Positions 3,115-58,866 of a DNA stretch of 64,000 bases are shown piece by piece. The stretch covers positions 62,001-126,000 of the forward strand of contig NZ_SODU01000004.1 in the NCBI RefSeq assembly GCF_004366075.1. The letters run 5' to 3'. Each line of letters begins with the position of its first letter. The first letter of the stretch is position 1. Made by a program: the position numbers and the translations under genes. The stretch comes from Kribbella pratensis. Its GTDB lineage: Bacteria; Actinomycetota; Actinomycetes; Propionibacteriales; Kribbellaceae. The notes under the pieces are model-generated. The model was given only the letters and a program-made list of their open reading frames with translations. It made no database searches and was not told the origin of the DNA.

Positions 3115-3147
3115 CACACTCTCCGTCCGTCGACTTCTCACAGGTAA

Positions 3148-3174: not shown

Positions 3175-3177
3175 TTG

Positions 3178-3891: not shown

Positions 3892-3922
3892 GGGGCTCTC
3901 CTTTTCTCGGACTACTTGATGA

Positions 3923-3949: not shown

Positions 3950-3957
3950 GGCGAGAC

Positions 3958-3984
3958 AGTCACAGAACGCCACTCCGGGTTGTC
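3958..3984 (+). promoter_or_regulatory. ECF41-type (SigJ) promoter for SdhA-like flavoprotein
   Basis: AGTCACA at 3958-3964, 16 bases, TGTC at 3981-3984. It lies back to back with the hydrolase promoter, the two -35 elements being 8 bases apart, as in the ltrA/epimerase region. Confidence 0.65.
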
Positions 3985-4023
3985 CTGGTGTGTAGGTACA
4001 GCCAATGCCCCTAAGGAGAACAG

Positions 4024-5754: not shown

Positions 5755-5771
5755 GGCGCACCTGACACTCG

Positions 5772-6548: not shown

Positions 6549-6551
6549 CGA

Positions 6552-7664: not shown

Positions 7665-7673
7665 GTGGTCACC

Positions 7674-9857: not shown

Positions 9858-9871
9858 GAACTACCCGCCGG

Positions 9872-10219: not shown

Positions 10220-10233
10220 CCCAGACTCCCCCC

Positions 10234-10260
10234 TTGGAACATCCCTCCCCGGTGTTCCAA
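10234..10260 (-). promoter_or_regulatory. Inverted repeat before the NTPase operon
   Basis: TTGGAACA (10234-10241), 11-base spacer, TGTTCCAA (10253-10260): a perfect 8-base inverted repeat 15 bases upstream of the first start codon of the four-gene operon. It could be an operator for a dimeric regulator (half-sites 19 bases apart, two helical turns) or a 5' hairpin. Confidence 0.5.
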
Positions 10261-10348
10261 TTGATGGAGCGTAGCGCACAGTGACGAGCACGGAAAGCCT
10301 CCGCGGGCAGCGGTTGTTTCTGCCGAATTGCCGCGGTGTTTTCGTTGG

Positions 10349-11236: not shown

Positions 11237-11250
11237 TCATCGATCATGAA
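11236..11250. promoter_or_regulatory. LysR-type operator (TTCAT-N5-ATGAA)
   Basis: TTCAT CGATC ATGAA is a perfect 5-5-5 inverted repeat containing the T-N11-A core typical for LysR regulators (T at 11237, A at 11249). It touches the first base of the lysR start codon and sits in the 72-base gap to the divergent exporter gene. Confidence 0.6.
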
Positions 11251-11308
11251 CGATCTGTCCAGGATTCTCACGTGGACGCGAACGGAATCGCGGGCTTCAC
11301 TGGACCGT

Positions 11309-12199
11309 ATGCGCACACGGGAGACCGGGATCGCCTTCGCGGTCCTGTCGATGACGATGGTCCAGCTGGGACTTGCCGCTTCGGTCGGGCTGTTCGACCG
11401 GGTCGGTCCTGAGGGTGCTGCCTGGCTGCGGCTGGTGTGCGCGGGTCTGATCGTGCTGGTGCTGTTCCGGCCGCGGCCGAGCTCGTTCGATCGCAACGCG
11501 TTCCTGGCGGCGGTCGGTCTCGGCGTCGCGACCGCGGGCGTGACGTTGCTGTTCATGGCGGCCGCGGCGCGCCTGCCACTCGGTACGGCGAGGGCACTGG
11601 AGTTCCTCGGTCCGCTGTCGGTCGCCGTACTGCGGAGCCGCGGGCGGCTGATCTGGCCGGCGTTGGCGTTCGGCGGCGTACTGCTCCTGACTCAGCCGTG
11701 GCACGGGTCGGTGGACGGTCCCGGCGTACTGTTCGCGCTCGGTGCCGCCGCGTGCTGGGCGGCGTACATCGTCCTCACCCAGCATGTTGGCAGCAACGTC
11801 ACCGGGCTGCAGGGCATGGGTGTCTCGCTTCCGGTCGCCGCGGTCGTGGCCACCGCCGTCGCCGGCCCCGCCACGATCCCGGTGATGACCTGGGAGTTGG
11901 TGGTCATCGGCTTCGGTCTGGCGCTTCTGCTACCGGTGATCCCGTTCAGCCTCGAGTACCTGGCGCTGCGCCGCCTGGACGCCGGTGTCTTCGGCACGTT
12001 GATGAGTCTCGAGCCGGCGCTGGCGCTGATGATCGGCTGGCTCCTGCTCGGCCAGTCCCCCACGTTGCTCCAGGCGTTCGGCATCGCGGGCGTGATCGCC
12101 GCCGGGATCGGCGCGGAGAAAGCCGCGAGCCGTCGCGCCCAGCAGACCGAGCATGACCAGCCCGACGACTCCGTGGTACCACTGCCAGCCGATGCCTAG
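11309..12199 (+). CDS. EamA/RhtA-type drug/metabolite exporter
   Basis: 296 residues with ten predicted membrane segments in two EamA repeats. [27 protein letters not shown] at the start and [41 protein letters not shown] in the second half are typical of the RhtA (threonine/homoserine exporter) subgroup, which exports amino acids or related small molecules by proton exchange. The ATG at 11309 has no clear ribosome site and may be leaderless or nearly so; upstream in-frame starts would overlap the LysR operator. Its 3' end overlaps the next gene on the other strand by about 270 bases. Confidence 0.88.
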
Positions 12200-42647: not shown

Positions 42648-42699
42648 GATCACCTCCCACAGTAGACGTCTCCCCCAGCCGGTTCGTTGCAGGTCTTTT

Positions 42700-42721
42700 G
42701 TTCAAGTTCTGTTTGCCGTCC
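42700..42721 (+). promoter_or_regulatory. Possible PHO box before PhoX-like gene
   Basis: GTTCAAGTTCT directly followed by GTTTGCCGTCC: two 11-base units starting GTT(C/T), similar to PhoP direct repeats (GTTCACC-type) and placed 64 bases before a phosphatase-like gene. The second unit is poor. Confidence 0.3.
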
Positions 42722-42784
42722 GGCAGCCGTCGGCGTGGAGGATCGCGGCAACGTCCCGTCCACGTAGTCAGCAGGAGTCAAGCC

Positions 42785-44224
42785 ATGTCTGTCGATCGTC
42801 GTTCCGTCCTCCGAGGTGCCGCCGTCGGCGCCGCCGGGGTCGGCTTCACCACCGTCGGCGCCGTGCCGACGCTCGCCGAGGCCGCGCCGGCCTCGCACGG
42901 CGACCGTTCGCCGTTCCCGCAGCACAAGCCCTTCCCGCCGCTGCTGGACGACCCGAAGGGTCTCCTGGCACTGCCCGCCGGCTTCAAGTACAAGGTCGTC
43001 ACCAAGGCCGGTGAGACCAAGCTGAAGAGCGGCCAGGCGACGCCGAACGCCCACGACGGAACCGCCGTGTTCAGCACCGGGAACCACTACCGGCTGATCC
43101 AGAACCACGAGATCAGCAGCGCCGGCGAGCTCGGCGTACCGCAGATCGAAGGCACCGTGTACGACACCGGCGTCGGCGCGGCCGGCGGCTGCACCGTCAT
43201 CGACGTCGACAAGGACGGCACCAACCTCGGCGAGTGGGTCGGTATCTCCGGCACGCTGACGAACTGTGCCGGCGGCCCGACGCCGTGGGGCACGTGGATG
43301 ACCTGCGAGGAGACCGAGAACAAGGCCAACGGCACCACCCGGCTGAAGGACCACGGGTACGTCTTCGAGGTCTGGGGCGACGGTAAGACCGCGCACCCGG
43401 TGCCGCTGAAGGCGCTCGGCCGCTACGCCCACGAGGCGCTGGCGATCGACGAGGACCGGACCCACATCTACCTGTCCGAGGACGCCTCCGGCCCGAACGG
43501 CACCTTCTACCGCTGGTCGGCGCCGCGCGGCTACAAGCTCGGCCCGCGCAGCTGGCAGGACCTGCAGAACAAGGACTTCGGCACCCTCGAGGCGCTGGCC
43601 ATCCTCGGTGACGACGGTAAGCCGATCCCCGACGTCGCGTACCTGACGTCGGCCCAGCTGCTCCGCCCGTTCCGGGTAGCCTGGGTTCCGGTACCGGACC
43701 GCGACGGCACCACGACGTCGGTGCGCAAGCAGTTCACCGACGGCCAGATCACCCGCGGCAAGAAGTTCGAGGGCGTCTACGGCACCAAGCAGGGCGTGTA
43801 CGTCGTGAACTCGTACGCCGAGTCCGGCACCGCCGACCTGCCCGCCGACGCGGTCCCGCACGACGGCATGGTCTGGTTCTACAACTACGACGCGAAGACC
43901 ATCCAGCTGGTCACGTACTTCCCGGAGAACGCCGCCGCGAACTCCCTCGAGTCGAAGTTCCAGGACCTCAACTTCGACGGCCCGGACAACGTCACCGTGA
44001 CGCCTTGGGGTTCGCTGATCCTCGCCGAGGACGGCCAGGCCAGCAGCCACGTGCTGAGCGCGACGCCGGGCGGCCCGACGTACGCCGTCGCCCGGAACAT
44101 GCTGAACGACTCCGAGTTCACCGGCCCGACGTTCTCCGCGGACGGCAAGGTGCTCTTCGTCAACATCCAGACGCCGGGCATCACGCTGGCCATCACCGGC
44201 CCGTGGCGCGACTACCTCGGCTGA
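42785..44224 (+). CDS. PhoX-like (DUF839) secreted phosphatase family protein, Tat substrate
   Basis: 479 residues. A twin-arginine signal VDRRSVLRGAAVGAAGVGFTT leads to a beta-propeller of the PhoX/DUF839 family: RLIQNHEISSAGELGVPQIEG, GGPTPWGTWMTCEETENK, GRYAHEALAIDEDRTHIYLSEDA, FDGPDNVTVTPWGSLILAEDG and FTGPTFSADGKVLFVNIQTPG. These blocks carry the metal ligands of PhoX alkaline phosphatases, which use calcium and iron. ATG at 42785 follows AGGAGT. Likely exported folded to the cell surface. Confidence 0.87.
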   Translation: MSVDRRSVLRGAAVGAAGVGFTTVGAVPTLAEAAPASHGDRSPFPQHKPFPPLLDDPKGLLALPAGFKYKVVTKAGETKLKSGQATPNAHDGTAVFSTGNHYRLIQNHEISSAGELGVPQIEGTVYDTGVGAAGGCTVIDVDKDGTNLGEWVGISGTLTNCAGGPTPWGTWMTCEETENKANGTTRLKDHGYVFEVWGDGKTAHPVPLKALGRYAHEALAIDEDRTHIYLSEDASGPNGTFYRWSAPRGYKLGPRSWQDLQNKDFGTLEALAILGDDGKPIPDVAYLTSAQLLRPFRVAWVPVPDRDGTTTSVRKQFTDGQITRGKKFEGVYGTKQGVYVVNSYAESGTADLPADAVPHDGMVWFYNYDAKTIQLVTYFPENAAANSLESKFQDLNFDGPDNVTVTPWGSLILAEDGQASSHVLSATPGGPTYAVARNMLNDSEFTGPTFSADGKVLFVNIQTPGITLAITGPWRDYLG

Positions 44225-44354: not shown

Positions 44355-45650
44355 TTACCGGGGTTGGTTGAGGAGGACGATCTCGCAGTCGTAGTGCTGG
44401 GAGGCGGTCATGTGGCCGCGGAACCAGAGGAGCGGTACGCGGTTCGGGTCGCCGGGAGCCACGATCGGGCGGAGGTTGTCGGCGGTCGAGTTCTCCGTTA
44501 CCGGTGTCCACGTCCACGTCGTCCCGGCGTCCGCCGTACGGGCGTGGAAGATCTCGTGGTGCTTCAGTGCGGCGCCGTCGCGTGGGTCGATCGGGGTGGA
44601 GACGTAGAGCGAGTCGAGGTCGTACGGGTCGATCGCGACCAGGCCGGTGTAGTCGTTCTCGTGCGGCAGGAGACCGTGCCCGGCCTTGGCCAGTTGATGT
44701 ACCTGCCAGGTCCCGCCCGGAGCGAGGCGCGCATAGAAGAAGCGGTGATCCGGCACCGGATGCTGCCGCGCGAAGGCGTCCTCCGGCTGCGCGGGAGTGT
44801 CGTGCCGGGCCAGCAGGATCGCCGCGAGCGTGCCGTCGTCGGCGCGGCGGATGTCGACGGTCCAGCAATGCGTCATCGGCTCGCGGTCCCAGACCGAGTC
44901 CGCCGCGAGGACCGTGGTGAGTTCCACCTGCGACGGTGCGTCGGCGTCCAGCGCGACCTCGTCCACCACGGTCCCGTCGGTCCGGTGCAGCGCGCCGGCC
45001 TCCAGGTACCCGTGGTAGATCGAGTTGTTGTAGTCGCGTGGATGGTGATCCGTCGTGATGAGATCCACGCGCGTCGGCGTCGACACGTAGCGGGTGTAGC
45101 CGTTGACGTAGCCGATCTTCGGGCGGGTGAAGAGCTTCCCGGCGTACGTCCAGGTGTCGCCGTCGTCGTCGGACACCAGTGCGCACGGGTCGTCGTTGAC
45201 CGCTCTCGCGAAGCAGTACAACCGGCCGTCGAGTTCGTGCAGGTTCGAGTACGTGACGCCGCGGCCGCCGGTGAACTCGCTCCAGTCGAACGTCTGCTCC
45301 GGACCCCACTTCCGCGGATCGCCCGGCTCGCTGACCCGCCACCGCGTCAGGTCGTCGGTCTTGTGCTTCGTGTACACGGCCAGCCAGCGCCCGTCCCTGC
45401 GTCGCCACAACGCCGGCACATCATGATCGTCGGCCTCGAACCGCTCATGCAGTACGACGACGTCCGCCGAACCGGTGTCCAACTCCACGACGGTCAGCTC
45501 GACATTGCCTGCCCGCGCGTCTCCCCCAGGGCCCTCCGGAGCCGCGATCGACCCGACGACGAGGACTCCGCCGTCCGGATCCACCACCGCCCGCTCGTCC
45601 TGGAACCAGCACCATGCACCGTTGTCGTTGATCACCCGAGCCGCATCCAT
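44355..45650 (-). CDS. BNR-repeat (sialidase-fold) family protein
   Basis: 431 residues, no signal peptide visible. Aspartate-box type repeats are seen (ALVSDDDGDTWTYAGK, RTADAGTTWTWTPV), with beta-propeller strands such as GRWLAVYTKHKTDDL, YVNGYTRYVSTPTRVDLITTDH and NDYTGLVAIDPYDLDSLYVSTP. The family contains glycosidases and polysaccharide lyases of neuraminidase fold; the actual reaction is unknown. A LacI-type palindrome AAGCGCTT lies 37 bases before the start, consistent with sugar-controlled expression. Confidence 0.8.
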   Translation of the reverse strand: MDAARVINDNGAWCWFQDERAVVDPDGGVLVVGSIAAPEGPGGDARAGNVELTVVELDTGSADVVVLHERFEADDHDVPALWRRRDGRWLAVYTKHKTDDLTRWRVSEPGDPRKWGPEQTFDWSEFTGGRGVTYSNLHELDGRLYCFARAVNDDPCALVSDDDGDTWTYAGKLFTRPKIGYVNGYTRYVSTPTRVDLITTDHHPRDYNNSIYHGYLEAGALHRTDGTVVDEVALDADAPSQVELTTVLAADSVWDREPMTHCWTVDIRRADDGTLAAILLARHDTPAQPEDAFARQHPVPDHRFFYARLAPGGTWQVHQLAKAGHGLLPHENDYTGLVAIDPYDLDSLYVSTPIDPRDGAALKHHEIFHARTADAGTTWTWTPVTENSTADNLRPIVAPGDPNRVPLLWFRGHMTASQHYDCEIVLLNQPR

Positions 45651-45683
45651 GGCCACCCAGTGTGGCAGGGAACCGACGCAATG

Positions 45684-45697
45684 GGTAAGCGCTTGCC
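45684..45697. promoter_or_regulatory. LacI-type operator before BNR gene
   Basis: GGTAAGCGCTTGCC: six of seven base pairs of a CG-centred palindrome (core AAGCGCTT at 45687-45694), the pattern bound by LacI/GalR repressors. Confidence 0.55.
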
Positions 45698-45756
45698 AGC
45701 ATGTGGTCAGGTGAGACGACGGCATCCCGCAGCGCGAGCGGTGCGAGGATCGGGGT

Positions 45757-46389
45757 ATGCCGATCGACCTGCACCTTCTGCTCGCGTTTCTGCTGACCAC
45801 GACCGTCGCGATGATCACGCCCGGACCGGACATGCTGTTCATCCTCGGCTGCGGGATGCGCAGTGGTCCGCGGGCCGGTCTGCTCGCGACCGCCGGGGTG
45901 GCGACGAGTGAGGCTGTGCACGTCGCGGTGGCCGCGGCCGGGTTGGCCGCGTTGTTCGCGGCGGTGCCGGTCGCGTTCACCGCGGTGCGGATCGTCGGTG
46001 CGGCGTACCTGGTCTATCTCGGCGTACAGATGATCCGGCACCGCAACGACGCCGTCGACGACGGGCCGGCCGGCGACGCCGCGATGTCCGGACGGAAGGC
46101 GTACCTGACCGGGCTGACCACGAACCTGCTGAACCCGAAGATGGTCACGTTCACGATCGCGTTCCTGCCGCAGTTCGTGGTGCCGTCCCACGGGCAGGTG
46201 TGGCTGCAGTTCGCGGTGCTCGGCGCGATCCTGATCGTGCTGGAGTTCCTGGTCGACGGGACGGTCGGCCTGCTGGCCGGGCGGATCGGGAACTGGCTGC
46301 GCACCCGCCGTACCGCCCGGCGCCGGATCGACACCGCCACCGGCGGCATCTTCATCGGACTCGGCGTCCGCCTCGCCCTCCTGCGCTAA
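45757..46389 (+). CDS. LysE-family amino-acid exporter (RhtB type)
   Basis: 210 residues with six hydrophobic segments. FLLTTTVAMITPGPDMLFILGCGMRSGPRAGLLATAGVATSE is the family signature, YLVYLGVQMIRHR and FLTGLTTNLLNPK-like YLTGLTTNLLNPKMVTFTIAFLPQFV follow. Exports amino acids or related metabolites with proton exchange. No regulator is adjacent. Its stop overlaps the convergent reductase gene by 4 bases. Confidence 0.92.
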   Translation: MPIDLHLLLAFLLTTTVAMITPGPDMLFILGCGMRSGPRAGLLATAGVATSEAVHVAVAAAGLAALFAAVPVAFTAVRIVGAAYLVYLGVQMIRHRNDAVDDGPAGDAAMSGRKAYLTGLTTNLLNPKMVTFTIAFLPQFVVPSHGQVWLQFAVLGAILIVLEFLVDGTVGLLAGRIGNWLRTRRTARRRIDTATGGIFIGLGVRLALLR

Positions 46390-47567: not shown

Positions 47568-48008
47568 TCACGTCGCCTCGAGAAGGTCCTTCAACCGGCC
47601 GAGGTCCTTGTTGTTCGCCCGCCGCATCGCCGCCGCCATCAACGGCCCCGCGACTCCGGCGAACCCGCTCGGCTCACCGCGGTTCCGCAGCGTCATCCGG
47701 GTCGCCGCCTCCCCCACCGGCGACCACTCGTAGCTGGTCTCCATCGGGAACGGTCCCTGCGCCGTCCGCATCACCAGCCGCCGGCCCGGGACCAGTTCGA
47801 CCACGTCATAGGTGTAGGCCAGCCGCCGCCCCAGAAAATGCGCGACGAAGTCCATCCGCGACCCCACCTCGACGGGCGGGTCTGTCTGCCACACCACCGA
47901 CTCGATGTTCGCGTACCACTGCGGCGCGTTGGACGGATCCCCGACGTACTCCGCCACCGCCTCCACCGGCCGCTCGATCACGATCTCGGTCAGTACGTCG
48001 ACTGTCAT
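47568..48008 (-). CDS. SRPBCC (START-like/polyketide cyclase) family protein
   Basis: 146 residues: DVLTEIVIERPVEAVAEYVGDPSNAPQWYANIESV is the typical first strand and helix, then SRMDFVAHFLGRRLAYTYDVVELVPGRRLVMRTAQGPFPMETSYEW and a C-terminal helix ending LGRLKDLLEAT. The fold binds hydrophobic ligands in a deep cavity; the ligand here is unknown. AGGAGGAGCC precedes the ATG. No operon partner. Confidence 0.88.
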   Translation of the reverse strand: MTVDVLTEIVIERPVEAVAEYVGDPSNAPQWYANIESVVWQTDPPVEVGSRMDFVAHFLGRRLAYTYDVVELVPGRRLVMRTAQGPFPMETSYEWSPVGEAATRMTLRNRGEPSGFAGVAGPLMAAAMRRANNKDLGRLKDLLEAT

Positions 48009-48078
48009 GGCTCCTCCTGGATTCGAATGTATCGCCGCGGCCGCGGACGACTCCGTCCGAGTAAGGGGAGGAACTGTC

Positions 48079-48615
48079 ATGAGCAACACACTCGGGCCAC
48101 AGCGGAAGCGGACCACCGCCGTACGGCGGAACACACGGCGCGCGATCGTCACCATCAACATCACCGAGGCCGTCGTCGCCCTGCCGTGTCTTGTCGCGGC
48201 ATACGGCCTTGCCGAGCGACTCGTCGCGGTCCAGGAGACCGCCGGACCGCACCACGTCGCGAGCCAGTCGGTCGCGCACCTCGCGATCACGCTGAACATG
48301 AGTCTGCTGATCGTCGGCGCCGCCGCCGGGGCGGTCGGCAGCGTGATCCAGCAGAGTATGGCGTTCGCTCGCAACGCCGCGCCGGATCATCCGGCCGCGT
48401 GGTACGTCATGCGGCCGCTCTGGTCGGCCCTGCTCGGCTCGGTGTCGGTCATCGCCGTCAACACCGGTCTGCTCAGCATCGGCGACGACAGCACATCCAG
48501 CGCCGCGATCGCCGTACTCGTGCTGACCGGCTGCCTGGCCGGCCTGTTCACCGATCAGGTCCTGCGCCGCCTCCGCCGCATGCTCGACCGCGGCGCCCGG
48601 ACCAGAACCAGCTAG
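48079..48615 (+). CDS. Small membrane protein ahead of the LodA-VWA gene
   Basis: 178 residues, family not recognised. A basic N terminus (GPQRKRTTAVRRNTRRA) and four hydrophobic segments (IVTINITEAVVALPCLVAAYGLA, LAITLNMSLLIVGAAAGAVGSVI, LWSALLGSVSVIAVNTGLLSI, AAIAVLVLTGCLAGLFTDQVL). GGGGAGG precedes the ATG. It ends 24 bases before the LodA-like gene on the same strand and so is probably its operon partner, perhaps a membrane anchor. Confidence 0.75.
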   Translation: MSNTLGPQRKRTTAVRRNTRRAIVTINITEAVVALPCLVAAYGLAERLVAVQETAGPHHVASQSVAHLAITLNMSLLIVGAAAGAVGSVIQQSMAFARNAAPDHPAAWYVMRPLWSALLGSVSVIAVNTGLLSIGDDSTSSAAIAVLVLTGCLAGLFTDQVLRRLRRMLDRGARTRTS

Positions 48616-48639: not shown

Positions 48640-51600
48640 ATGGCCACGACCTACAAGATCCATCCGGCGATCGGCATCGCCCGGGTCGGCAACAGCCCGG
48701 ACGAGTTCTTCGTCGGACCGGAGCACCTCGGCGAGCGACCGGAACCACCGGGCGGATTCAAGGACGCCCAGTGCCGCGTCAAACGGCAGGCGGCACGCTT
48801 CCGGATCTTCGCGCACCACGACGACGGCAGCGTGGACGAGATCGACGACGCCTCCGCCGAGATCTCGTGGACCGTTCACCTGGTGAACGCCAAGGCCGCG
48901 CACCCGAACCGCGGCAACAGCGAGCCGATCGGTCAGCTAGCGATCGACCCGGGCCCACGAACCCTGACCGGGCCCGACCAGCGGGAGCTCTTCGACACAG
49001 GCACGATCGACTTCTCCGGACAGCCGTCGGTGACCGTACCGCTCGGCGAGATCCGCAGCGACGACGACAACCACCTGCTCGTCCTCGGCGGGCACGGCGC
49101 CGCCGCGTCCCCGGCCGGCAATGTGATCGGCAGCTTCTGGGGAAACGCCGGCTGGTACGACGACGTGTCGGACGGACCCGTGACGGCGACGATCACCTTG
49201 CGCTCAGACAACTCGACACCACCGGTCGAGGGCGCCTGGGCGATCGTCGCGCCGCCGAAGTTCGCCCCGCACCAGGACAATGTGACCACGCTCTACGACC
49301 GGGTCCTGCAGCACATGATCGACCTCGGACTCGTGCCGGCGCCGACCACGACGTCGTACACGAACGACGTCTATCCGATCCTGCAGCGCGCCCGCGACAT
49401 GCGCTGGGTGGAAGGGATCTTCGGCGCGCACAGCTGGCCGGATCCGGTGACGTCGCAGCCGCTCGTCGACGCGATCTTCGCGCGGCTGCGACCGCCCGGC
49501 GACATGCCCAGGCTCAACGGCGGCGACTCCGCGCTGACGCCGACCCAGTACGCACACATGCAGCGGTGGCAGGCCGGCAACTACGCCGCGGACTGGACCG
49601 GCGTACCGGCGCCGCAGACCGACCTGACCCCGGACGGTATGGATCGCGCGGCCCTCGAGGCCTGTGTCGGCGGCGCGTTCTTCCCCGGCATCGAGGCCGG
49701 CGGGCTGTCCGCGGGCGACCGGCCGATCATCGAGACGTCGTACGCCGCGGCGTTCCGGATCTCGTCCACCGCCGGCACGATCAGCCAGGCGATGGCGCTG
49801 CCGTGGCACGCCGACTTCAAGGCGTGCGGTGACAACTGGTGGCCGGTGCCGCGACCGAACGACGTGATCGCGCAGGACACCGGCAGCCAGGCCCGCTGGG
49901 ATCGTGACGTCACGAGCATGGACGACATGGTGACGCTGTGGCACACCCTCGGGTTCGTCGTCGAGCAAGGGGCCGAGCACGTCGAGGTCGAGCACTGCGA
50001 CGAGTCGTCCATCACGCTGCTCACGCCGGAGTTGCGTTTCATCGACGTACCGCAGGGGCCGATGGGCATGGTGCGCGAGGCCGCACTGGCGATCAGCTTC
50101 GAGGTGCTGTCGCCCGGATCCGCCGTCACGCTCGACTACGCGCCCGGAGGTGCGCCGGCGCATCCCCAGTTGGTCGCCGCCACTACTTCGGTCACGGTCG
50201 GACCGACCGCGCCCAACGGTGTGGCGACCGCTCGGCTGTGGGTCGTGTACAGGACCGGCGTGGCGCCGTCCTCCATCCCGCCGCAGGTACTCACGGTCCG
50301 CGAAGCCGCGTCCGGTCAGACCTGGGACGTGACTGTCACCGGCAACACCGTTGCGCGCAAGACGGCAGCCACCGCACTGGTGCTCGACCGCTCGGGCAGC
50401 ATGACTGAGGACCGCGGCGACGGCCAGAGCAAACACGTGGCACTACAGCAGGCCGCGAACATCTTCGTCGACCTGATGCTCGAAGGCGACGGCGTCGGCA
50501 TCGTCCGCTACAACGAGGACGCGCAGCCGTTGCAGTCCGTTCTCGAGCTCGGCGCGGGCGGGCTGTCCGATCTGAACCGCAACGCGACCCACGACACGAT
50601 CAACGGCACCGGCCTCGATCCGCAGGGCGCGACCTCCATCGGCGACGGCATCTTCGAGGGCCGCGCGCTGCTCGACGCGGCACCGCCGTACGACGTGAAA
50701 TCGCTGGTCGTGCTCACCGACGGCATCGAGAACAGTCCACGCCTGATCTCCGACGTCGCCGCGCAGATCAACGAGCGCACGTACACCGTCGGGCTCGGGC
50801 AGCCGCAGAACATCAGCGTGCCCGCCTTGCAGACGATCTCCGGCAACAACGGCGGGTACCTGCTGGTGACCGGCGCGATCACCACCGACAACAGGTTCCT
50901 GTTGCAGAAGTACTTCCTGCAGGTGCTGGCGGGGATCAGCAACGCCGAGGTGGTGCTCGACCCGGACGGCGAGCTGAGTGCCGGTGCGGTGCACCGCATC
51001 CCGTTCCAGCTCTCCGACGGGGACTCGGGTGTGGACGTCGTACTGCTGACACCACGTCCGGAGGCCGTCGACTTCCGGCTCCAGACGCCGAACGGTCTGC
51101 TGATCGAACCATGGCGGGCGCAGGCGGAGCCGGCGATGCGGTACGTGACCGGCGACGGCGTCGCGTACTACCGGATCACGCTGCCCGTCCAGCTCCGGCC
51201 GAGCCGTTTCGACCAGGCCGGGACCTGGCACGCGTTACTGACGATCGGGCGACCGCATACCGGGAGGACCCCTGATGACTCCGATGGCGTCGACCTGTCG
51301 ATCCTCCGCGGCCGCGCCAACCAGCCGGTGCGATCGGCTCCACCCGCGCGGCGCCCGTTCGAGTTCGAGCGCGCCTTCGCCGTCGCGAACGAGCCGATCG
51401 AGGGTGAGCAGCCCGGGCGGCGTGGTCTTCCGTACAGCCTGGTGGTGCACTCCTACTCGAACGTGTCGCTGCGCGCCACGGCCGACCAGCGATCCTTCGA
51501 GCCCGGCGCCTTGGTGACGATCAACGCGACGCTCACACAGTCCGGCGTACCGGTCGACGGCGAGCCTTCTGTGTGGGCCGACGTGACGCGCCCTGACGGA

Positions 51601-51930
51601 TCGCCGGCAACGCTCGTTCTGGATCAGGTTGCGGCCGGTGAGTTCGCGGCAAGCTTCGGTACGGCGTTGCCTGGTGTCTACCGGATCCGCGTGCGCGCTC
51701 GCGGACGTACTCGCGTGGGACGGCCGTTCACCCGGGAACGTACGCTCACGGCGGCGGTGTGGCGGGGCGGCGACACCCCACCGACTACTCCTGGCGGTGA
51801 TGCGTTCTGCGAGTGGTTGTCGTGCCTGTTCAAGGACGGGGTCATCGACGAGAAGCTGATCGAGCGGCTGCGGCGGCTCGGGTTCGACCTCGACGCGCTC
51901 CGCAAGTGCCTGCGCGGTTGCGGCTGCTGA
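48640..51930 (+). CDS. LodA-like CTQ oxidase fused to VWA and Ig-like domains
   Basis: 1096 residues, no signal peptide. Residues 1-500 match the LodA/GoxA family of cysteine tryptophylquinone amino-acid oxidases: opening YKIHPAIGIARVGNSPDEFFVGPE, LEACVGGAFFPGIEAGG with the cofactor cysteine near residue 342, and CGDNWWPVPRPNDV with the partner tryptophan near residue 400. LodA acts on free lysine, GoxA on glycine, making H2O2. From residue 575 a von Willebrand A domain follows with complete MIDAS: DRSGSM (583), GATSIGDGIF, LTDGIEN (694). Then a beta-sandwich region (FEPGALVTINATLTQSGVPVDG) and a cysteine-rich tail CLRGCGC. Metal-dependent adhesion fused to an oxidase is unusual. The LodB-like gene follows directly. 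Confidence 0.88.
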   Translation: MATTYKIHPAIGIARVGNSPDEFFVGPEHLGERPEPPGGFKDAQCRVKRQAARFRIFAHHDDGSVDEIDDASAEISWTVHLVNAKAAHPNRGNSEPIGQLAIDPGPRTLTGPDQRELFDTGTIDFSGQPSVTVPLGEIRSDDDNHLLVLGGHGAAASPAGNVIGSFWGNAGWYDDVSDGPVTATITLRSDNSTPPVEGAWAIVAPPKFAPHQDNVTTLYDRVLQHMIDLGLVPAPTTTSYTNDVYPILQRARDMRWVEGIFGAHSWPDPVTSQPLVDAIFARLRPPGDMPRLNGGDSALTPTQYAHMQRWQAGNYAADWTGVPAPQTDLTPDGMDRAALEACVGGAFFPGIEAGGLSAGDRPIIETSYAAAFRISSTAGTISQAMALPWHADFKACGDNWWPVPRPNDVIAQDTGSQARWDRDVTSMDDMVTLWHTLGFVVEQGAEHVEVEHCDESSITLLTPELRFIDVPQGPMGMVREAALAISFEVLSPGSAVTLDYAPGGAPAHPQLVAATTSVTVGPTAPNGVATARLWVVYRTGVAPSSIPPQVLTVREAASGQTWDVTVTGNTVARKTAATALVLDRSGSMTEDRGDGQSKHVALQQAANIFVDLMLEGDGVGIVRYNEDAQPLQSVLELGAGGLSDLNRNATHDTINGTGLDPQGATSIGDGIFEGRALLDAAPPYDVKSLVVLTDGIENSPRLISDVAAQINERTYTVGLGQPQNISVPALQTISGNNGGYLLVTGAITTDNRFLLQKYFLQVLAGISNAEVVLDPDGELSAGAVHRIPFQLSDGDSGVDVVLLTPRPEAVDFRLQTPNGLLIEPWRAQAEPAMRYVTGDGVAYYRITLPVQLRPSRFDQAGTWHALLTIGRPHTGRTPDDSDGVDLSILRGRANQPVRSAPPARRPFEFERAFAVANEPIEGEQPGRRGLPYSLVVHSYSNVSLRATADQRSFEPGALVTINATLTQSGVPVDGEPSVWADVTRPDGSPATLVLDQVAAGEFAASFGTALPGVYRIRVRARGRTRVGRPFTRERTLTAAVWRGGDTPPTTPGGDAFCEWLSCLFKDGVIDEKLIERLRRLGFDLDALRKCLRGCGC

Positions 51931-51932
51931 CC

Positions 51933-53045
51933 ATGCTCGACGTGGTCGACATGGTCACGGCGTATGACGTCGTTGTCGCCGGCGGAGGTCCCGCCGGCGC
52001 AGCGACCGCCTTGCGGCTGGCTGGTTCTGGGTTCTCCGTCGCGTTGCTGGAACGCAGTCGCTTCGACCGGCCGCGCGTCGGCGAAACGCTTGCCCCGAGC
52101 ATCCAGCCGCTGTTGCAGGGCCTCGGGGTCTGGGAGCGGTTTGTTGCCTTGGGCCCCTTGCCATCGTGGGGCACGCGGAGCATCTGGAGCAGCACGGCAC
52201 CTGCTGCGCATTCGCATCTCGAAACTGGTTACGGCAGCGGCTGGCATGTTGATCGCCGGTTGTTCGACCGGATGCTGTGCGACGCGGCAGCCGCAGCCGG
52301 AACATCAGTGTCCCTCGGCACGTCCCTCATCGACTGCCGGTACGACGGCAGGTGGCAACTCACCTGCTCCAACGGCCACCGCCTGACTGCGCGAGTCCTG
52401 ATCGACGCGACCGGCCGCTCGGCCACCATCGGGCGGTCGCTCGGCGCGCGGCGGATCGCCTTCGACCGCCTGGTCGGGATCACCGCTCAATGGAGCGGCG
52501 TGGATGTCTCAGCCGAGCAGTACCTGCTGATCGAGTCGGTCCCCGACGGCTGGTGGTACACGGCGCCGCTTCCCGGGCACGTGATGGTCGGCATGCTCAT
52601 GACCGACGCCGACATCTGCCGCCACCACAACCTCGCCGCTTCAGCGCCCTGGCGCAACCACCTCGAATCCACCACAGCAACCGCACTCCGCGTCGACAGC
52701 GCAACATGCTTGCCGACCACGCCGCGGGTGTACTCGGCTGCCAGTCATCGGCTCGTCCGGCCCGGTGACATCCGCCCCTGGCTCGCAGTCGGTGACGCCG
52801 CCCTCGCCGTCGACCCCATCTCAGGCAGCGGCGTACCCCGAGCCCTCCGCACCGCCGAAGCCGCCGCAACAACAGCCGCCCGCCTACTGACCCACCCCGC
52901 CGACGCGATCCCCCTCACCACCTACGAGTCCACCCGAAACACCGAGTGCACCACCTACCTCTCCACCCGAGCCGACTACTACGCCATAGCCCTCCCCCAC
53001 CCAACCCCCTTCTGGACCCGCCGACAACTCACAGCCGCGTCCTGA
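51933..53045 (+). CDS. LodB-like FAD-dependent maturase of the CTQ oxidase
   Basis: 370 residues of the flavin-dependent hydroxylase/halogenase-like fold: YDVVVAGGGPAGAATALRLAGSGFSVALLERS binds FAD, RVGETLAPSIQPLLQGLGVW and RVLIDATGRSATIGRSLGARR are typical of LodB/tryptophan-halogenase relatives, and WLAVGDAALAVDPISGSGVPRAL is the second FAD motif. LodB proteins are needed to form the tryptophylquinone in LodA proteins. Starts 2 bases after the LodA-type gene ends, so the assignment rests on both sequence type and position. An ATG at 51951 is also possible. Confidence 0.85.
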   Translation: MLDVVDMVTAYDVVVAGGGPAGAATALRLAGSGFSVALLERSRFDRPRVGETLAPSIQPLLQGLGVWERFVALGPLPSWGTRSIWSSTAPAAHSHLETGYGSGWHVDRRLFDRMLCDAAAAAGTSVSLGTSLIDCRYDGRWQLTCSNGHRLTARVLIDATGRSATIGRSLGARRIAFDRLVGITAQWSGVDVSAEQYLLIESVPDGWWYTAPLPGHVMVGMLMTDADICRHHNLAASAPWRNHLESTTATALRVDSATCLPTTPRVYSAASHRLVRPGDIRPWLAVGDAALAVDPISGSGVPRALRTAEAAATTAARLLTHPADAIPLTTYESTRNTECTTYLSTRADYYAIALPHPTPFWTRRQLTAAS

Positions 53046-53720: not shown

Positions 53721-56700
53721 TCAGCGGAAGTCGCGGGATTTGGTGCGGGCGGCCAGGGGGAGGCGTTGGAGGTGGTCGGCGGAGAGGTTGGTTACTTCGC
53801 CGGCGCGTTCTACGCGGCCGCGGATGATCATGGCGGCGGCGTTGCGGGCCACGGCGGCGTGGCGGTGCCAGCAGCCGACGGTGATGACGATGTTCGCCAT
53901 GCCGGTCTCGTCCTCGAGGTTCATGAACGTGACGCCGGAGGCGGTCGCGGGGCGTTGGCGGTGGGTGACCACGCCGGCGACCCGGACGCGGGCGCCGTTC
54001 GGGGCCGCCTTCAACTCGGCCGCCGACAGGATGCCGTCGGCGCGGAGCCGGTCGCGGACCCGTTGCATCGGATGGCTCTCGGTGGTGATCGAGGTGGACC
54101 ACAGGTCCGCCATATCGGCCTCGATGTCGCTCATCCCGGGCAGCGTCGGCGGCGGACCGGCCGCGGTGATCCCGGCCAGCTGCCCCGGACGCTCCTCGGC
54201 CGCCCGGCCCGCTTCCCACAAGGCCTGCCGCCGGTCGAGCCCGAAGCAGTCGAACGCCCCGGCGGTCGCCAGCGCCTCGACCTGTGCTGCGGTGATCCCG
54301 GTACGCCGGACCAGGTCGGCCATCTCGGTGAACGGCCCGCCCCGCTCCCGCTCCTCGACGATCAGCTTCGCGCCCTTCTCCCCCACGGTGCGTACTTCGG
54401 ACAACCCGAGCCGGACCGCGAACGCACCGTCCCGGCGATGCACCGTGGTGTCGAACGGCGCCTTCGGATCGAACGGGCCTACCAACGGCTGCGGGTCCGC
54501 CAAACACTCGTCCATCCCGGTCGGCCCGGTCCGCTCCTGCCCTTCGACCAGCAACTCGAGCCCCGCGTCCACCCCCGAGAGATGCAGGTGCGGACGCCGT
54601 ACCTCGACGCCGTGCCGGCGGGCGTCGGCGACCAGGGACTGCGGTGAGTAGAACCCCATCGGCTGCGCCCGGAGCAGGGCGGCCAGGAACGCGGCCGGGT
54701 AGTGCAGCCGCAGCCACGTGCTGGAGTAGACGAGCAGCGCGAAGCTGATCGAGTGCGACTCGGCGAACCCGAAGTTCGCGAACGCCTCGATCTTGGCGTA
54801 GATCTCGTCGGCCAGCTCCCCGGTGATCCCGTTGCCCGCCATCCCGGCGTACAGCTTGTCCTTCAGCGACGAGATCTTCTCGATCCCGCGTTTGGAGCCC
54901 ATCGCGCGGCGCAGCAGATCGGCCTCGTCGCCGTCGATCTCGCCGACCGCCATCGCCATCTGCATCAGCTGCTCCTGGAACAGCGGCACGCCCATGGTCC
55001 GCTCCAGCACCGGTTCCAGCTTGGGATGCAGGTAGGTGATCGGCTCCTCGCCGGTCCGGCGGCGGATGTACGGATGCACGGCGCCGCCCTGGATCGGGCC
55101 GGGCCGGATCAGCGCGATCTCGGTGACCAGGTCGTAGAACCGCCGCGGTTTCAGCCGCGGCAGGGTCGCCATCTGCGCCCGGGACTCCACCTGGAACACG
55201 CCCACCGAGTCCGCGTGGCAGAGCTGGTCGTAGACCCCGGCCTCCTCCCGCGGGATCGTGTGCAGCTCCCACGACTCCCCGAGTTGCTCGCGGACCATGT
55301 CCAGGCAGTACTGCAGCGCGGCCAGCATGCCGAGTCCAAGCAGATCGAACTTCACCAGCCCCATCCACGCGCAGTCGTCCTTGTCCCACTGCAGGACCGT
55401 GCGCTTGTCCATCCGGGCGTGCTCGATCGGCACCACCTCGCCGACCGGACGCTCGGTCAGCACCATCCCGCCGGAGTGGATCCCCAGGTGCCGCGGGAAC
55501 TTCAGCAGCTCGGTCGCCATCCCCACAACCTGCGGCGGGATGTCGTGCTCGGTCGAGGTGATCTCCGGGCTCCAGCCGTCCACCTGTTTCGACCACGCAT
55601 CCTGCTGACCGACGGAGTACCCGAGGGCCTTGGCCATGTCCCGGACGGCGGACTTCGGGCGGTAGGAGATCACGTTCGCCACCTGGGCCGCGTTGTGCCG
55701 GCCGTATTTCTCGTAGACGTGCTGGATCACCTCCTCGCGGCGTCCGGAGTCGAAGTCGACATCGATGTCCGGCTCCTCGGCGCGCGTGGTGGCCAGGAAC
55801 CGCTCGAACGGAAGGTTGTAGAGGATGCTGTCCACCGCGGTGATCCCGAGCGCGTAGCAGACCGCGGAGTTCGCCGCCGATCCCCTGCCCTGACAGAGGA
55901 TCCCGTTGTCGTGCGCGAACTTCACGATGTCGTGCACGATCAGGAAGTACCCCGGGAAGCCCTTCTCCTCGATGACGTCGAGCTCCCGCTCCAGCCGCTC
56001 GTACGCATCCGGGCGCGCCGCGCGCGTCCCGTACCGCCGGGCAGCGCCATCGAAGGTCAGATGCCGCAACCACGACATCGGGGTGTGACCGTCGGGCACG
56101 TCGCGCAGCGGCAGCTTCGGTTTCGCCCGGGCGAGGTCGAACGCGAGCTGGTCCGCCAGCGTCACCGAGCGCGCCACCGCCCCGTCGTACCGCTGGAAGC
56201 GGGCGGTCATCTCCGCGCCGGAGCGCACGAACGCCATCCCGCTCGACGGCAGCCAGCCGTCCATCGCGTCCAGGTCGCGACGGGCCCGTACGGCGGCCAG
56301 CGCGGCAGCCAGCTTGTGCTGGGCCGGGGTCGCGTAATGAACGTTGTTCGTGGCAACTACCGGGAGGCCGCGGTCGGCGGCCAGACCGGCCAGGACGCGG
56401 TTCCGTGTGGTGTCGGCGGGGACGTGATGGTCGATCAGCTCGACAACCACCCGGTCCTTGCCGAACAGTGCGGTCAGCCGGTCCAGCTCGCGTCCGGCCG
56501 CCGCCGGGCCGTCGGCATGCCCGCCGAGCTCCAGCGCCTGCCGGACCAGTCCCTTACGGCATCCGGTCAGGATCATCCAGTGGTCACGACCCTTGGCAGC
56601 CAACCGCTCCAACGAGTAGACCGGCTTCCCCTTCTCCCCACCGGCCAGCTGCGCCTCGGTGATCTCACCGGCCAGCCTGTGGTACCCCTCCTGCCCCTCG

Positions 56701-57152
56701 GCCAGCACCAGCAGGTGACTGCCTTCAGGATCCGCCACCCCGTTCTGCGGGCCGGTCAGCCCCAGCGACAGCTCCGCCCCGAACACGGTCGGCAGCGAGT
56801 ACGCCGCCGCGGCCTCGGCGAACCGGGCCGCGCCGTAGAACCCGTCGTGATCGGTCAGCGCCAGCGCGTGCAGCCCCTGCCGGACGGCGGCCTCGACCAG
56901 GTCCTCCGGTTGCGAGGCGCCGTCCAGGAAGGAGAAGTTCGAGTGGACGTGGAGCTCGGCGTACGGCACCGAATGTTCCGGCCTGGCGGCCAGAGTCTTC
57001 GAAGGCACATACGGCCCACGATGCTGCGACCACGCAGGGCTGTCCCCGCCGTCGCCCGTGACCGGACGGCCGCCGTGGCTGCCCGGGCGCGAGCGGTCCG
57101 ACAGCTTGCGCTCCAGCTCCGACCACTTGATCGGCGGATTGTCGTAGCCCAT
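53721..57152 (-). CDS. dnaE2: Error-prone DNA polymerase III alpha (DnaE2/ImuC)
   Basis: 1143 residues. PHP domain at the N terminus (AELHVHSNFSFLDGASQPEDLVEAA), polymerase core with the catalytic aspartates in EEPDIDVDFDSGRREEVIQHVYEKYG, RPKSAVRDMAKALGY, PGPIQGGAVHPYIRRR, YAKIEAFANFGFAESHSISFALLVYSS, and a C-terminal OB fold (VRVAGVVTHRQRPATASGVTFMNLEDETGMANIV). The length and DnaE2-type C terminus without a beta-clamp tail fit DnaE2, which copies past DNA damage during SOS mutagenesis. A LexA box lies 35 bases before the ATG next to a TAATAT -10. imuA and imuB are not adjacent here. Confidence 0.95.
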   Translation of the reverse strand: MGYDNPPIKWSELERKLSDRSRPGSHGGRPVTGDGGDSPAWSQHRGPYVPSKTLAARPEHSVPYAELHVHSNFSFLDGASQPEDLVEAAVRQGLHALALTDHDGFYGAARFAEAAAAYSLPTVFGAELSLGLTGPQNGVADPEGSHLLVLAEGQEGYHRLAGEITEAQLAGGEKGKPVYSLERLAAKGRDHWMILTGCRKGLVRQALELGGHADGPAAAGRELDRLTALFGKDRVVVELIDHHVPADTTRNRVLAGLAADRGLPVVATNNVHYATPAQHKLAAALAAVRARRDLDAMDGWLPSSGMAFVRSGAEMTARFQRYDGAVARSVTLADQLAFDLARAKPKLPLRDVPDGHTPMSWLRHLTFDGAARRYGTRAARPDAYERLERELDVIEEKGFPGYFLIVHDIVKFAHDNGILCQGRGSAANSAVCYALGITAVDSILYNLPFERFLATTRAEEPDIDVDFDSGRREEVIQHVYEKYGRHNAAQVANVISYRPKSAVRDMAKALGYSVGQQDAWSKQVDGWSPEITSTEHDIPPQVVGMATELLKFPRHLGIHSGGMVLTERPVGEVVPIEHARMDKRTVLQWDKDDCAWMGLVKFDLLGLGMLAALQYCLDMVREQLGESWELHTIPREEAGVYDQLCHADSVGVFQVESRAQMATLPRLKPRRFYDLVTEIALIRPGPIQGGAVHPYIRRRTGEEPITYLHPKLEPVLERTMGVPLFQEQLMQMAMAVGEIDGDEADLLRRAMGSKRGIEKISSLKDKLYAGMAGNGITGELADEIYAKIEAFANFGFAESHSISFALLVYSSTWLRLHYPAAFLAALLRAQPMGFYSPQSLVADARRHGVEVRRPHLHLSGVDAGLELLVEGQERTGPTGMDECLADPQPLVGPFDPKAPFDTTVHRRDGAFAVRLGLSEVRTVGEKGAKLIVEERERGGPFTEMADLVRRTGITAAQVEALATAGAFDCFGLDRRQALWEAGRAAEERPGQLAGITAAGPPPTLPGMSDIEADMADLWSTSITTESHPMQRVRDRLRADGILSAAELKAAPNGARVRVAGVVTHRQRPATASGVTFMNLEDETGMANIVITVGCWHRHAAVARNAAAMIIRGRVERAGEVTNLSADHLQRLPLAARTKSRDFR

Positions 57153-57184
57153 GCGCCACTCCCGAACATCACCTAGAACCATAT

Positions 57185-57200
57185 TAGAACATAAGTTCGA
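57185..57200. promoter_or_regulatory. LexA (SOS) box before dnaE2
   Basis: GAAC-ATAA-GTTC at 57187-57198, flanked by TA and GA, matches the actinobacterial SOS box (TCGAAC-N4-GTTCGA) well. On the minus strand TAATAT (57186-57181) follows as -10. The LuxR gene begins 58 bases away on the other side. Confidence 0.85.
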
Positions 57201-57255
57201 CCGGTGCCCAGAACCCCGGGAGGTAGCCTGCTGGTAAGTCGAGGGGACGCGGCGG

Positions 57256-58866
57256 GTGGACGAGCACACGGACAACCTCACCCTGGCGCGGCAGGCCTGT
57301 ACGGCAACGGACTGGGCCACCGCCGCGGCGCTCTTCGACGTGGTCGCGACCGAGCGGCTCACCGCGGACGATCTCGCCGCGTACGCCGACGCCGCGTGGT
57401 GGCTCGGCCGGATCGAGGACACCCTGCGGTTGAACGCCGCTGCGTGCGACGCCTTCCTGGCCGGCTCCCGGCCGGTCGAGGCCGCATGGACCGCCATGGT
57501 GCTGGGCATCTTCCACCTGGGACGCGGCGACGAGCCACAGGGCATGGGCTGGATCGGCCGCGCCGGACGTCTGCTGCAGGGAGTACCCGAATGCAAGGTG
57601 CACGGATACCTGCTGCACCTGACGGAGGTGGAGGCGAACCTGCAGGCCGGCCGGCCCGGGGCGGCGGCGGAGGCGGCCCGCCGGACACAGGATCTCGGCC
57701 GCTGGCTCGGCCAGCCCGACCTGGTGGCTCTGGGCCTGAACGGCGAAGGCCGCGCCCTGATCAGGTCCGGCCAGGTGGCCGACGGGCTGAAGTTGCTCGA
57801 CGAGGCGATGGTCACCGTCCTGGACGGCCGGCTCGACCCGTTCGCATCGGGCACCCTCTACTGCCACACCATCGCGACCTGTCACGAGGTCGCCGACATC
57901 CGCCGGATGAGCCACTGGATCGGCCTGACCGAGCAGTGGCTGGCCGGCTTCCCCGCCGCCGTCGCGTTCGGAGGCTTGTGCGCGGTGCACCGGGCCCAGC
58001 TTCAGTTGCTCCGCGGCGAGTGGGACGAGGCCGAGCGAACCGCGCTGCGGGTCGCGGTGGACCTGGACGTCAACCGGATCGACTACGCCGCGGAGGCCTG
58101 GTACGTGGTAGCCGAGGTACGCCGGCTGCGTGGCGACCCGAGCGCCGCCGATGCGTACGACGAGGCACATGCCCGCGGGCGGGACCCGCAGCCGGGACGT
58201 GCGCTGTTGCAACTCCGGAAGAACCAGCCTGTGGCCGCCGCGACGGCGGTTCGCTCGGCCGTGGCCGCAGCCGGCCCCGACCCGTTGCGCCGGGCCCCGC
58301 TCTGGTCTGCCGCGGTCGAGATCGCGATCGCCGCGGGCCGGCTGGACGATGCGTCGGACGCAGCCTCGGAGCTGGCAGCGACGGCATCGAGGTACGCCAC
58401 GTCGGGGCTCGAGGCGATGGCAGCAACGGCACACGGCACGGTGCTGCTGGCCCAGGATCGCGCTGAGGAGGCACTTCCCGTACTTCGCGACGCGTGCCGG
58501 CGCTGGCACGAACTCGGCGCGGCGTACGACGCGGCCGCGATCTGTGTCCGGCTCGCTGTCGCGTATCGGGCGCTCGGCGACGAGACGTCCGCCGCTGCTG
58601 AGGTTGCGCGGGCCGAGACGACGTTCGAACGACTGGGAGCCTACCGGCAGCCACCAGGCTCGCCCGACGGGTTGACCGGACGCGAGTGCGACGTGCTGTC
58701 ACTCGTGGCCGACGGCCGCTCCAACCGGGAGATCGGCCAAGCGCTGCACATCAGCGACCGCACGGTCGCACGGCACCTGACCAACGCCTTCCACAAGATC
58801 GGTGTCGCCTCGCGGACGCAGGCCGCGCGCTACGCCATCGACCACGGGCTGACAGCCGGTCGGTGA
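57256..58866 (+). CDS. LuxR-type regulator with TPR-like sensory region
   Basis: 536 residues. About 460 residues of TPR-like helical repeats (LARQACTATDWATAAALFDVVATERL, MGWIGRAGRLLQGVPECKVHGYLLHLTEVEANLQAGRPGAAAEAARR) lead to a C-terminal LuxR helix-turn-helix (LTGRECDVLSLVADGRSNREIGQALHISDRTVARHLTNAFHKIGVASRTQAARYA). No NTPase domain is present, unlike the larger LAL/MalT regulators. GTG start with GAGGGGA upstream. The next gene, an alpha/beta hydrolase, is preceded by a palindrome and is its likely target. Confidence 0.9.
   Translation: MDEHTDNLTLARQACTATDWATAAALFDVVATERLTADDLAAYADAAWWLGRIEDTLRLNAAACDAFLAGSRPVEAAWTAMVLGIFHLGRGDEPQGMGWIGRAGRLLQGVPECKVHGYLLHLTEVEANLQAGRPGAAAEAARRTQDLGRWLGQPDLVALGLNGEGRALIRSGQVADGLKLLDEAMVTVLDGRLDPFASGTLYCHTIATCHEVADIRRMSHWIGLTEQWLAGFPAAVAFGGLCAVHRAQLQLLRGEWDEAERTALRVAVDLDVNRIDYAAEAWYVVAEVRRLRGDPSAADAYDEAHARGRDPQPGRALLQLRKNQPVAAATAVRSAVAAAGPDPLRRAPLWSAAVEIAIAAGRLDDASDAASELAATASRYATSGLEAMAATAHGTVLLAQDRAEEALPVLRDACRRWHELGAAYDAAAICVRLAVAYRALGDETSAAAEVARAETTFERLGAYRQPPGSPDGLTGRECDVLSLVADGRSNREIGQALHISDRTVARHLTNAFHKIGVASRTQAARYAIDHGLTAGR

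Follow-up and report, generated by a model that had tools for sequence, protein, structure and literature searches.

In this work, we analysed a stretch of 64,000 nucleotides from Kribbella pratensis (NZ_SODU01000004.1, positions 62,001-126,000; hereafter the window, to which all coordinates below refer unless a locus is named). It carries a single ATG-initiated open reading frame (ORF), 48640-51930 (+), encoding a protein of 1096 amino acids in which a LodA-type oxidase is joined to a von Willebrand factor A (VWA) domain. The most important finding is that the C-terminal part of this protein, residues ~453-1096, appears to be a mobile, separately evolving module, which domain calls on all 12 LodA-free carriers placed on tyrosinases (10 proteins), an S8 subtilase and an M14 carboxypeptidase. 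Furthermore, alignments correct the predicted residues of the cysteine tryptophylquinone (CTQ) cofactor to C396 and W401. The LodA-vWA fusion itself has been known since 2015; as far as a limited literature search shows, the novelty lies in the sharing of the module, in the range of its partners and their distribution, and in the correction of the cofactor residues. What had looked like an odd fusion may thus belong to a family of modular proteins whose shared role, namely the delivery of protein-modifying or H2O2-producing enzymes to a target, can be tested.

Spread of the module among unrelated enzymes

The first sign of the module was that the C-terminal half of the K. pratensis protein matched LodA-free proteins in two Kribbella-genus genomes, and both of these are tyrosinases (PF00264, E-values of 5e-36 and 2e-37). 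In a search with the full module, ordinary VWA domains dominated the result (of 394 genomes, 96 matched, few of them beyond the VWA), so that the later searches used the post-VWA part (A3). Among the 394 genomes of the class Actinomycetes, the full module was present in the window, in G426 on a Peptidase_S8 and in G071 on a tyrosinase, with partial matches in G144 and G180, while 296 genomes of the phylum Actinomycetota gave the full module of the window and partial matches in three. The class of the Variovorax genome (369 genomes) yielded four full modules, borne by the seed LodA and three tyrosinases, along with three weak matches. In the phylum of the Myxococcales genome (235 genomes), the seed LodA and one tyrosinase were full, two matches were weak, and an additional partial match was a LodA with a degenerate VWA. 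Two LodA proteins with the full module and three weak matches came from 149 genomes of the phylum of the Brocadia genome. Plasmids contributed three of 72,556 records: tyrosinases of Haloarcula and Microvirga, and a Caballeronia Peptidase_M14 (E-value of 2.8e-52). These surveys are overlapping, non-independent samples with 3 to 14 candidates scored per genome, so misses are possible; in G1213, G1337, G1412, G1450, G515, G616 and G874 the matches were weak only. No match to the module was found in the phage records searched, and the viral contigs gave two loci matching the VWA part only.

On LodA, the module occurs in Kribbella, Variovorax, Aquabacterium, and genomes of Myxococcota and Planctomycetota, and both LodA-VWA and tyrosinase-VWA proteins are present in Aquabacterium and in G015. 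Two of the tyrosinases, L064 and L065, are 95% identical (902/952). An archaeal tyrosinase-VWA protein is encoded on a plasmid of Haloarcula sp. JP-L23 (L059:6675-9548 (+)), where it is annotated only as a VWA domain-containing protein.

The metal ion-dependent adhesion site (MIDAS) of the VWA domain is well preserved in these fusions: its five positions do not vary among the 13 modules aligned, and its three motifs are found in all 26 complete fusions (14 LodA, 10 tyrosinase, S8 and M14). In a module tree of 20 rows, seven LodA modules were grouped (support of 96/86), and the M14 protein was placed with two tyrosinases (97/93), thus indicating that the N-terminal enzyme was exchanged at least once, at the M14 protein; the placement of the degenerate L067 is unsure.

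Three further VWA proteins were noted. An actinomycete protein, L058:7260-9812 (-), is CLCA-like, with a HELGHN metalloprotease-like part followed by a VWA (weak CLCA and M64 Pfam matches, below cut-off). In two distant genomes, L057:5689-8829 (+) and L070:4830-7988 (-) have ASH/HYDIN immunoglobulin (Ig)-like repeats before the VWA and a related C-terminal part.

Domain organisation of the LodA-VWA protein

The preliminary description of this stretch had read the ORF as a LodA-family oxidase with a VWA domain, a complete MIDAS and a Cys-bearing tail, followed two bases later by a LodB-like flavoprotein gene, and our results bear this out. LodA_N (PF17990) was matched over its full profile length with an E-value of 2.1e-57 (195 bits vs. 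a curated cut-off of 26.3), LodA_C (PF18417) with 5.7e-20 (72 bits vs. 25), and VWA with about 1e-7; at an E-value of 0.001, this ORF has the only LodA_N match in the 8.39 Mb host genome. All MIDAS residues are present (D583, S585 and S587 of the DxSxS motif, T665 and D694), as are the tail cysteines C1057, C1062, C1090, C1094 and C1096. According to the alignment and a structure model, the module begins with an Ig-like part (FxDVPxG), after which come the VWA, a beta-sandwich, another Ig-like part and a helical tail whose cysteines are paired:

48640..49995 (+), CTQ oxidase region of the LodA family, residues 1-452 (LodA_N beginning at residue 8, LodA_C 297-407; matches to LodA and PlGoxA in the PDB)
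49996..50364 (+), first Ig-like part (FxDVPxG...), residues ~453-575, boundary approximate (conserved across the LodA, tyrosinase, S8 and M14 fusions; strands in the module model)
50371..50859 (+), VWA with complete MIDAS, residues ~578-740 (Pfam; matches to the VWAs of CLCA1 and mussel PTMP1)
50908..51279 (+), beta-sandwich after the VWA, residues ~757-880, boundary approximate (secondary structure in the module model)
51412..51759 (+), second Ig-like part, residues ~925-1040, boundary approximate (Filamin in Pfam with an E-value of 0.026, below cut-off; filamin chains in the PDB; strands in the model)
51796..51930 (+), helical tail with two Cys pairs (C1057, C1062; C1090, C1094/C1096) and the stop codon (tail comparison, module model)
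51933..53045 (+), LodB-like flavin adenine dinucleotide (FAD) maturase, 370 amino acids (NF038171; FAD_binding_3 and Trp_halogenase in Pfam)

When the module profile was compared with PDB sequences, the best matches were the VWAs of the mussel thread matrix protein PTMP1 (9e-15) and of CLCA1 (3.8e-13), followed by VWAs of bacterial membrane, pilus and Bat-type proteins. Foldseek with the module model likewise returned VWA proteins, with query-normalised TM scores of at most 0.24 among the 50 matches listed; for the CLCA1 VWA, the TMt was 0.64-0.65.

The tail cysteines were compared in 19 of the 20 rows, L067 being left out. The inner two are together present in 16 of the 19 tails and together absent in three, whereas of the outer pair 13 tails have both members, four have neither, and L060 and L061 each have only one. 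This paired presence and absence fits two putative disulfides joining the tail helices, and such bonds would suit an oxidising place.

Predicted cofactor residues and enzyme class

CTQ would most likely form from C396 and W401, as predicted from the alignment with LodA of known structure and from the invariance of these residues among relatives. The positions concerned are as follows:

49663..49665 (+), Cys342, not a cofactor residue (aligned with LodA C442)
49813..49815 (+), Asp392, conserved Asp (LodA D512; PlGoxA D678, weak; 24/24)
49825..49827 (+), Cys396, predicted CTQ cysteine (LodA C516; PlGoxA C682, weak; 24/24)
49840..49842 (+), Trp401, predicted CTQ tryptophan, the second Trp of NWWPVPRP (24/24)

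In the PDB alignment, Cys396 (PWHADFKAC) and Asp392 stand opposite LodA C516 and D512 in a stretch of 24.8 bits; both also align with PlGoxA C682 and D678, but in a weak stretch of 2.8 bits. D392, C396 and W401 are invariant in all 24 rows of an alignment of LodA-like sequences from plasmids and genomes, on which the assignment of W401 rests, the PDB alignments ending before LodA W581. The window protein, L005, L006, L007, L010 and L012 are close kin in this alignment and the other 18 rows are more distant; outside it stand the N-terminally truncated L009, L011 with its near-copies, and L076, L077, L078 and L092, where no ORF with the N-terminal motif was found.

The preliminary description had named Cys342 (CVGGAFFPGIE) and Trp400 as the cofactor pair, and this assignment has to be given up. 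C342 aligns with LodA C442, while it is C396 that aligns with the CTQ cysteine C516; C342 is missing from two of the 24 rows (L072 and L084), and W400 is variable in the same rows, in contrast to its invariant neighbour W401. PlGoxA has a leucine opposite C342 in a stretch of only -1.2 bits, so that the evidence against C342 comes from the alignment with LodA and from the 24 rows.

The predicted loop is short, with a spacing of five residues from C396 to W401 as compared to 65 between LodA C516 and W581. A short Cys-Trp loop with a Trp-Trp pair has a precedent in quinohemoprotein amine dehydrogenase, whose cofactor is formed by Cys37 and Trp43 with Trp42 adjoining (PMC7876137). The same short loop is shared by the stand-alone LodA proteins L084 and L081. 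C396 and W401 are the residues for any mutagenesis of the cofactor.

At the level of sequence, the window protein is securely assigned to the LodA/GoxA-family class of CTQ-dependent oxidases, enzymes that deaminate amines and pass the electrons to O2 to give H2O2 and ammonia. Its scores stay below the equivalog cut-offs for both LodA lysine 6-oxidase (NF038172, 151.7 bits vs. 600) and GoxA glycine oxidase (NF038173, 205.3 bits vs. 750). Moreover, Phe348 aligns with LodA Cys448 and, weakly, with PlGoxA His583, two residues that we take to shape substrate choice, and all 12 aligned rows, the window protein among them, have F or Y at this position. With an aromatic residue at this place, lysine specificity cannot be assumed, and the substrate, lysine oxidation included, cannot be named from the sequence. 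An animal lysyl oxidase (LOX) domain was not found, a Pfam scan to an E-value of 0.1 giving LodA_N, LodA_C, VWA_2, VWA and Filamin only, and neither the LodA-VWA nor the LodB-like protein matched any anti-phage defence family of PADLOC-DB at an E-value of 0.01.

Relatives of the whole protein and the LodB-like partner

As judged by sequence comparison, the ORF is not a chance fusion, since other genera and phyla contain full-length relatives that are 61-97% identical; the preliminary description had suggested looking for further VWA-containing LodA proteins, and these are they. Scanning of genome contigs led to 11 loci, namely four from Kribbella, two from Variovorax, one from Aquabacterium, and four further records labelled Candidatus Brocadia, Myxococcales, Deltaproteobacteria and Nitrososphaerales. 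L009 and L011 among them are cut off, and L012 is apparently frameshifted and was used only up to the frameshift. LodA-VWA proteins with the whole module and MIDAS span Actinomycetota, Pseudomonadota, Myxococcota and Planctomycetota. Within the genus, the full protein is found in 7 of 38 genomes; outside Kribbella, the identity is 54-71% and the spread is patchy, which suggests horizontal transfer.

The LodB-like gene begins with an ATG at 51933, 2 bases past the LodA-VWA stop. Its best NCBIfam match is maturase_LodB (NF038171; E-value of 1e-68, 231.9 bits, positions 1-361 of 361), and as the equivalog cut-off of 400 is not reached, we call the product LodB-like and not LodB. A LodB-like gene lies downstream of all 14 MIDAS-bearing LodA-VWA genes for which downstream sequence exists (those of the window, L002-L010, L012, L021, L022 and L068; L011 ends inside the gene), and it is the recurring neighbour of the LodA-VWA loci outside Kribbella.

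Several observations were made on related genes. At L011:4044-6077 (+), a contig of 6 kb that bears the label Nitrososphaerales archaeon contains a fragment of LodA-VWA, which could be a binning error; the 2015 survey reports that LodA was not found in Archaea (PMC4417212). L068 (G1390, phylum of the Brocadia genome) carries in order a cytochrome-c-like VWA protein (444-4838 (+)) with an apparent signal peptide and a C-terminal membrane segment, LodA-VWA (4950-8318), a LodB-like gene (8327-9406) and a second LodA-like gene (9572-11494). No LodB-like match was found on the stretch of L072. A plasmid of Paraburkholderia caribensis (L083:1652-7962 (+)) encodes a 1136-amino-acid LodA with a long C-terminal extension, by eye not the VWA module, adjoining genes for an S53 peptidase and a flavoprotein. 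Ferritin-like genes stand just upstream of LodA/GoxA-family genes on plasmids of Hymenobacter (L084:989-2080 (+)) and Azospirillum (L085:1120-2430 (+)).

Possible role of the module

Taken together, the results lead us to propose, with somewhat better than even confidence, that the module is a carrier or adhesion unit bringing enzymes to a target. The LodB-like flavoprotein would complete CTQ from C396 and W401, by analogy with LodB and GoxB; the module would bind a partner or surface through its MIDAS metal and hold the enzyme there; and the enzyme would deaminate nearby amino groups, releasing the aldehyde or keto product together with ammonia and H2O2. Elsewhere, the same module would carry tyrosinases and peptidases. 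The sequences show the family, the residues, the linkage to the maturase gene and the sharing of the module; quinone formation, ligand binding, site of action and substrate are what we infer here, the MIDAS-mediated binding of a partner from the conserved residues and the fusion to unrelated enzymes. The occurrence of one module on tyrosinase, subtilase and M14 carboxypeptidase lends indirect support to the suggestion that the enzyme is directed to a protein or surface by the VWA, and a protein target is plausible given that proteins or Tyr/Lys side chains are substrates of the partner enzymes.

Several results weigh against this proposal. Related LodA proteins have lost the VWA (L071:4415-7012 (-)) or carry a degenerate MIDAS (L067:4294-8451 (+) and L072:4095-8147 (-)), thus indicating that the module is not always needed, and the tail cysteines are absent from the Kribbella tyrosinases and the S8 protein. 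The structure models are of low confidence: the AlphaFold model of the full protein (12 rows) has a mean pLDDT of 44, with the LodA part mostly below 40, too poor for active-site geometry, and the module model (9 rows), with a mean of 58, was used for secondary structure only. A clear signal peptide was not seen in 24 proteins by crude hydropathy of the first 60 residues, so that a surface role fits badly unless export is unconventional. The N-terminus of the window protein is polar, and its highest 15-residue hydropathy mean, 0.45 vs. 1.59 and 1.87 for two controls, agrees in this simple check with the earlier statement that it has no signal peptide. The highest value in the set, 1.43 for the S8 protein, and that of 1.27 for the M14 protein leave a small gap to the controls. 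The starts of L019, L020 and L060 are uncertain, and L009, L055, L066, L021 and L022 stand outside the set. Since the twin-arginine (Tat) pattern missed the PhoX control, the absence of a Tat signal was judged by eye only.

The loss or degeneration of the VWA in some relatives also favours the next best explanation, which we regard as possible though rather unlikely: the protein may be a free amino-acid oxidase like LodA or GoxA, antimicrobial or metabolic through H2O2, in which the VWA module only oligomerises or stabilises the enzyme. The stand-alone LodA proteins that share the short Cys-Trp loop are consistent with this, and so are the relatives characterised to date, lysine and glycine oxidases whose family is described as releasing H2O2 (PMC4417212, PMC3948610). 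The preservation of the whole module with its MIDAS, across four phyla of LodA-VWA proteins and on unrelated enzymes, argues against it.

Tyrosinases, subtilases, M14 carboxypeptidases and LodA can all act on protein or on Tyr/Lys side chains. This would suit a lysyl-oxidase-like enzyme making allysine in a target protein held by the VWA module, as would the oxidation of the lysine epsilon-amine by LodA (PMC4417212). We consider such an activity unlikely; F348 at the LodA Cys448 position counts against assuming lysine specificity. If protein-bound amines were the substrate, the fusion would offer a prokaryotic route to protein cross-linking. Going further, the module might serve prokaryotes generally as a carrier, docking both oxidative and proteolytic enzymes on a surface made of protein. 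On this surface, CTQ oxidases would produce allysine and tyrosinases dopaquinone, as a bacterial and archaeal counterpart of the cross-linking that lysyl oxidases and tyrosinases perform in animal matrices. We hold this broader idea to be decidedly doubtful.

Tyrosinases and M14 carboxypeptidases need a metal, which would agree with a VWA serving as the docking site for a MoxR-type AAA+ chaperone that aids metal or cofactor insertion, as in AAA+/VWA pairs; in those systems, though, the VWA occurs as a partner subunit. The insertion of metals is the task in which MoxR-VWA pairs act (PMC13036017), and copper dependence is described for the first step by which LodA forms CTQ (PMC7876137). Nevertheless, this explanation is very improbable, the recurring genes at 19 loci being the LodB-like gene, one protein kinase pair and a few low-identity or housekeeping pairs; that comparison covered a few kb of flank at each locus with the low-identity pairs unidentified, so that an AAA+ gene there or elsewhere is possible.

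Comparison with known systems

The closest known proteins are the LodA-vWA proteins of Amycolatopsis vancoresmycina (1114 amino acids) and Cryptosporangium arvum (1026 amino acids) (Campillo-Brocal et al. 2015, Table 3, PMC4417212), two members that the survey placed outside its five groups and left without a determined function. Compared by description and not by sequence, they share with the window protein the LodA family, a vWA (pfam13519), an actinobacterial host and about the same length. The C. arvum gene is given as lacking lodB nearby (PMC4417212), whereas lodB-like genes are found here, and the full-length relatives in four phyla and the module on other enzymes are further differences. 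Besides this paper, a limited literature search, with subscription journals mostly outside its coverage, found no relevant paper on LodA with a VWA and, by title and abstract start, no report of a bacterial tyrosinase-VWA fusion.

The lysine 6-oxidase LodA of Marinomonas mediterranea (PDB 3weu, 2ymw) has LodA_N and LodA_C, the CTQ cysteine and Asp, and a lodB-type gene directly downstream in common with the present system; it differs in its length of 726 amino acids, in Cys448 at the place of Phe348 and, we presume, in carrying no VWA. The glycine oxidase GoxA/PlGoxA (PDB 6eer, 6byw) has Cys682 and Asp678 opposite C396 and D392, and differs in its chain of 816 amino acids and in His583 opposite Phe348, all of these pairings lying in weak stretches. 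The bacterial tyrosinase MelC2, which presumably carries no VWA module, resembles the N-terminal domain of the sister proteins L019 and L059 (NF047834, E-values of 2e-59 and 4e-55), which with scores of 201 and 187 miss the equivalog cut-off of 450.

CLCA1 likewise combines an enzyme with a MIDAS-bearing VWA and then beta-rich and FnIII-type parts (PMC6851300). It differs in being a secreted eukaryotic protein (metalloprotease-VWA-BSR-FnIII) whose enzyme is a zinc metalloprotease without homology to LodA. CLCA1 is able to process MUC2, and an interaction with TMEM16A that depends on its MIDAS has been suggested (PMC6851300).

Neighbouring genes and further observations

Upstream of the oxidase gene lies the ORF 47905-48615 (+), and its approximately four hydrophobic stretches agree with the small membrane protein noted there earlier. 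Among the compared loci, which did not include Kribbella L002-L004 and L022, only L021 (same genus, 81% identity) has a counterpart. At L062:2004-4592 (-) of Aquabacterium and L066:3185-4984 (-) of a genome from the Myxococcales phylum, the latter locus beginning at a contig end, a Pkinase gene lies downstream of the tyrosinase-VWA gene, and the two kinases are 28% identical; other recurring gene pairs between loci are of low identity or housekeeping.

Elsewhere in the window, 42698-44224 (+) encodes a PhoX-type alkaline phosphatase (Pfam E-value of 1.4e-71), whose match to a TAT signal is weak and falls below the cut-off. The product of 53721-57854 (-) is of the DNA polymerase III alpha type, contains PHP, NTPase and finger domains, and may be a DnaE2-type second copy; a BNR-repeat protein (BNR_4, E-value of 1.6e-12) is encoded at 44355-45980 (-).

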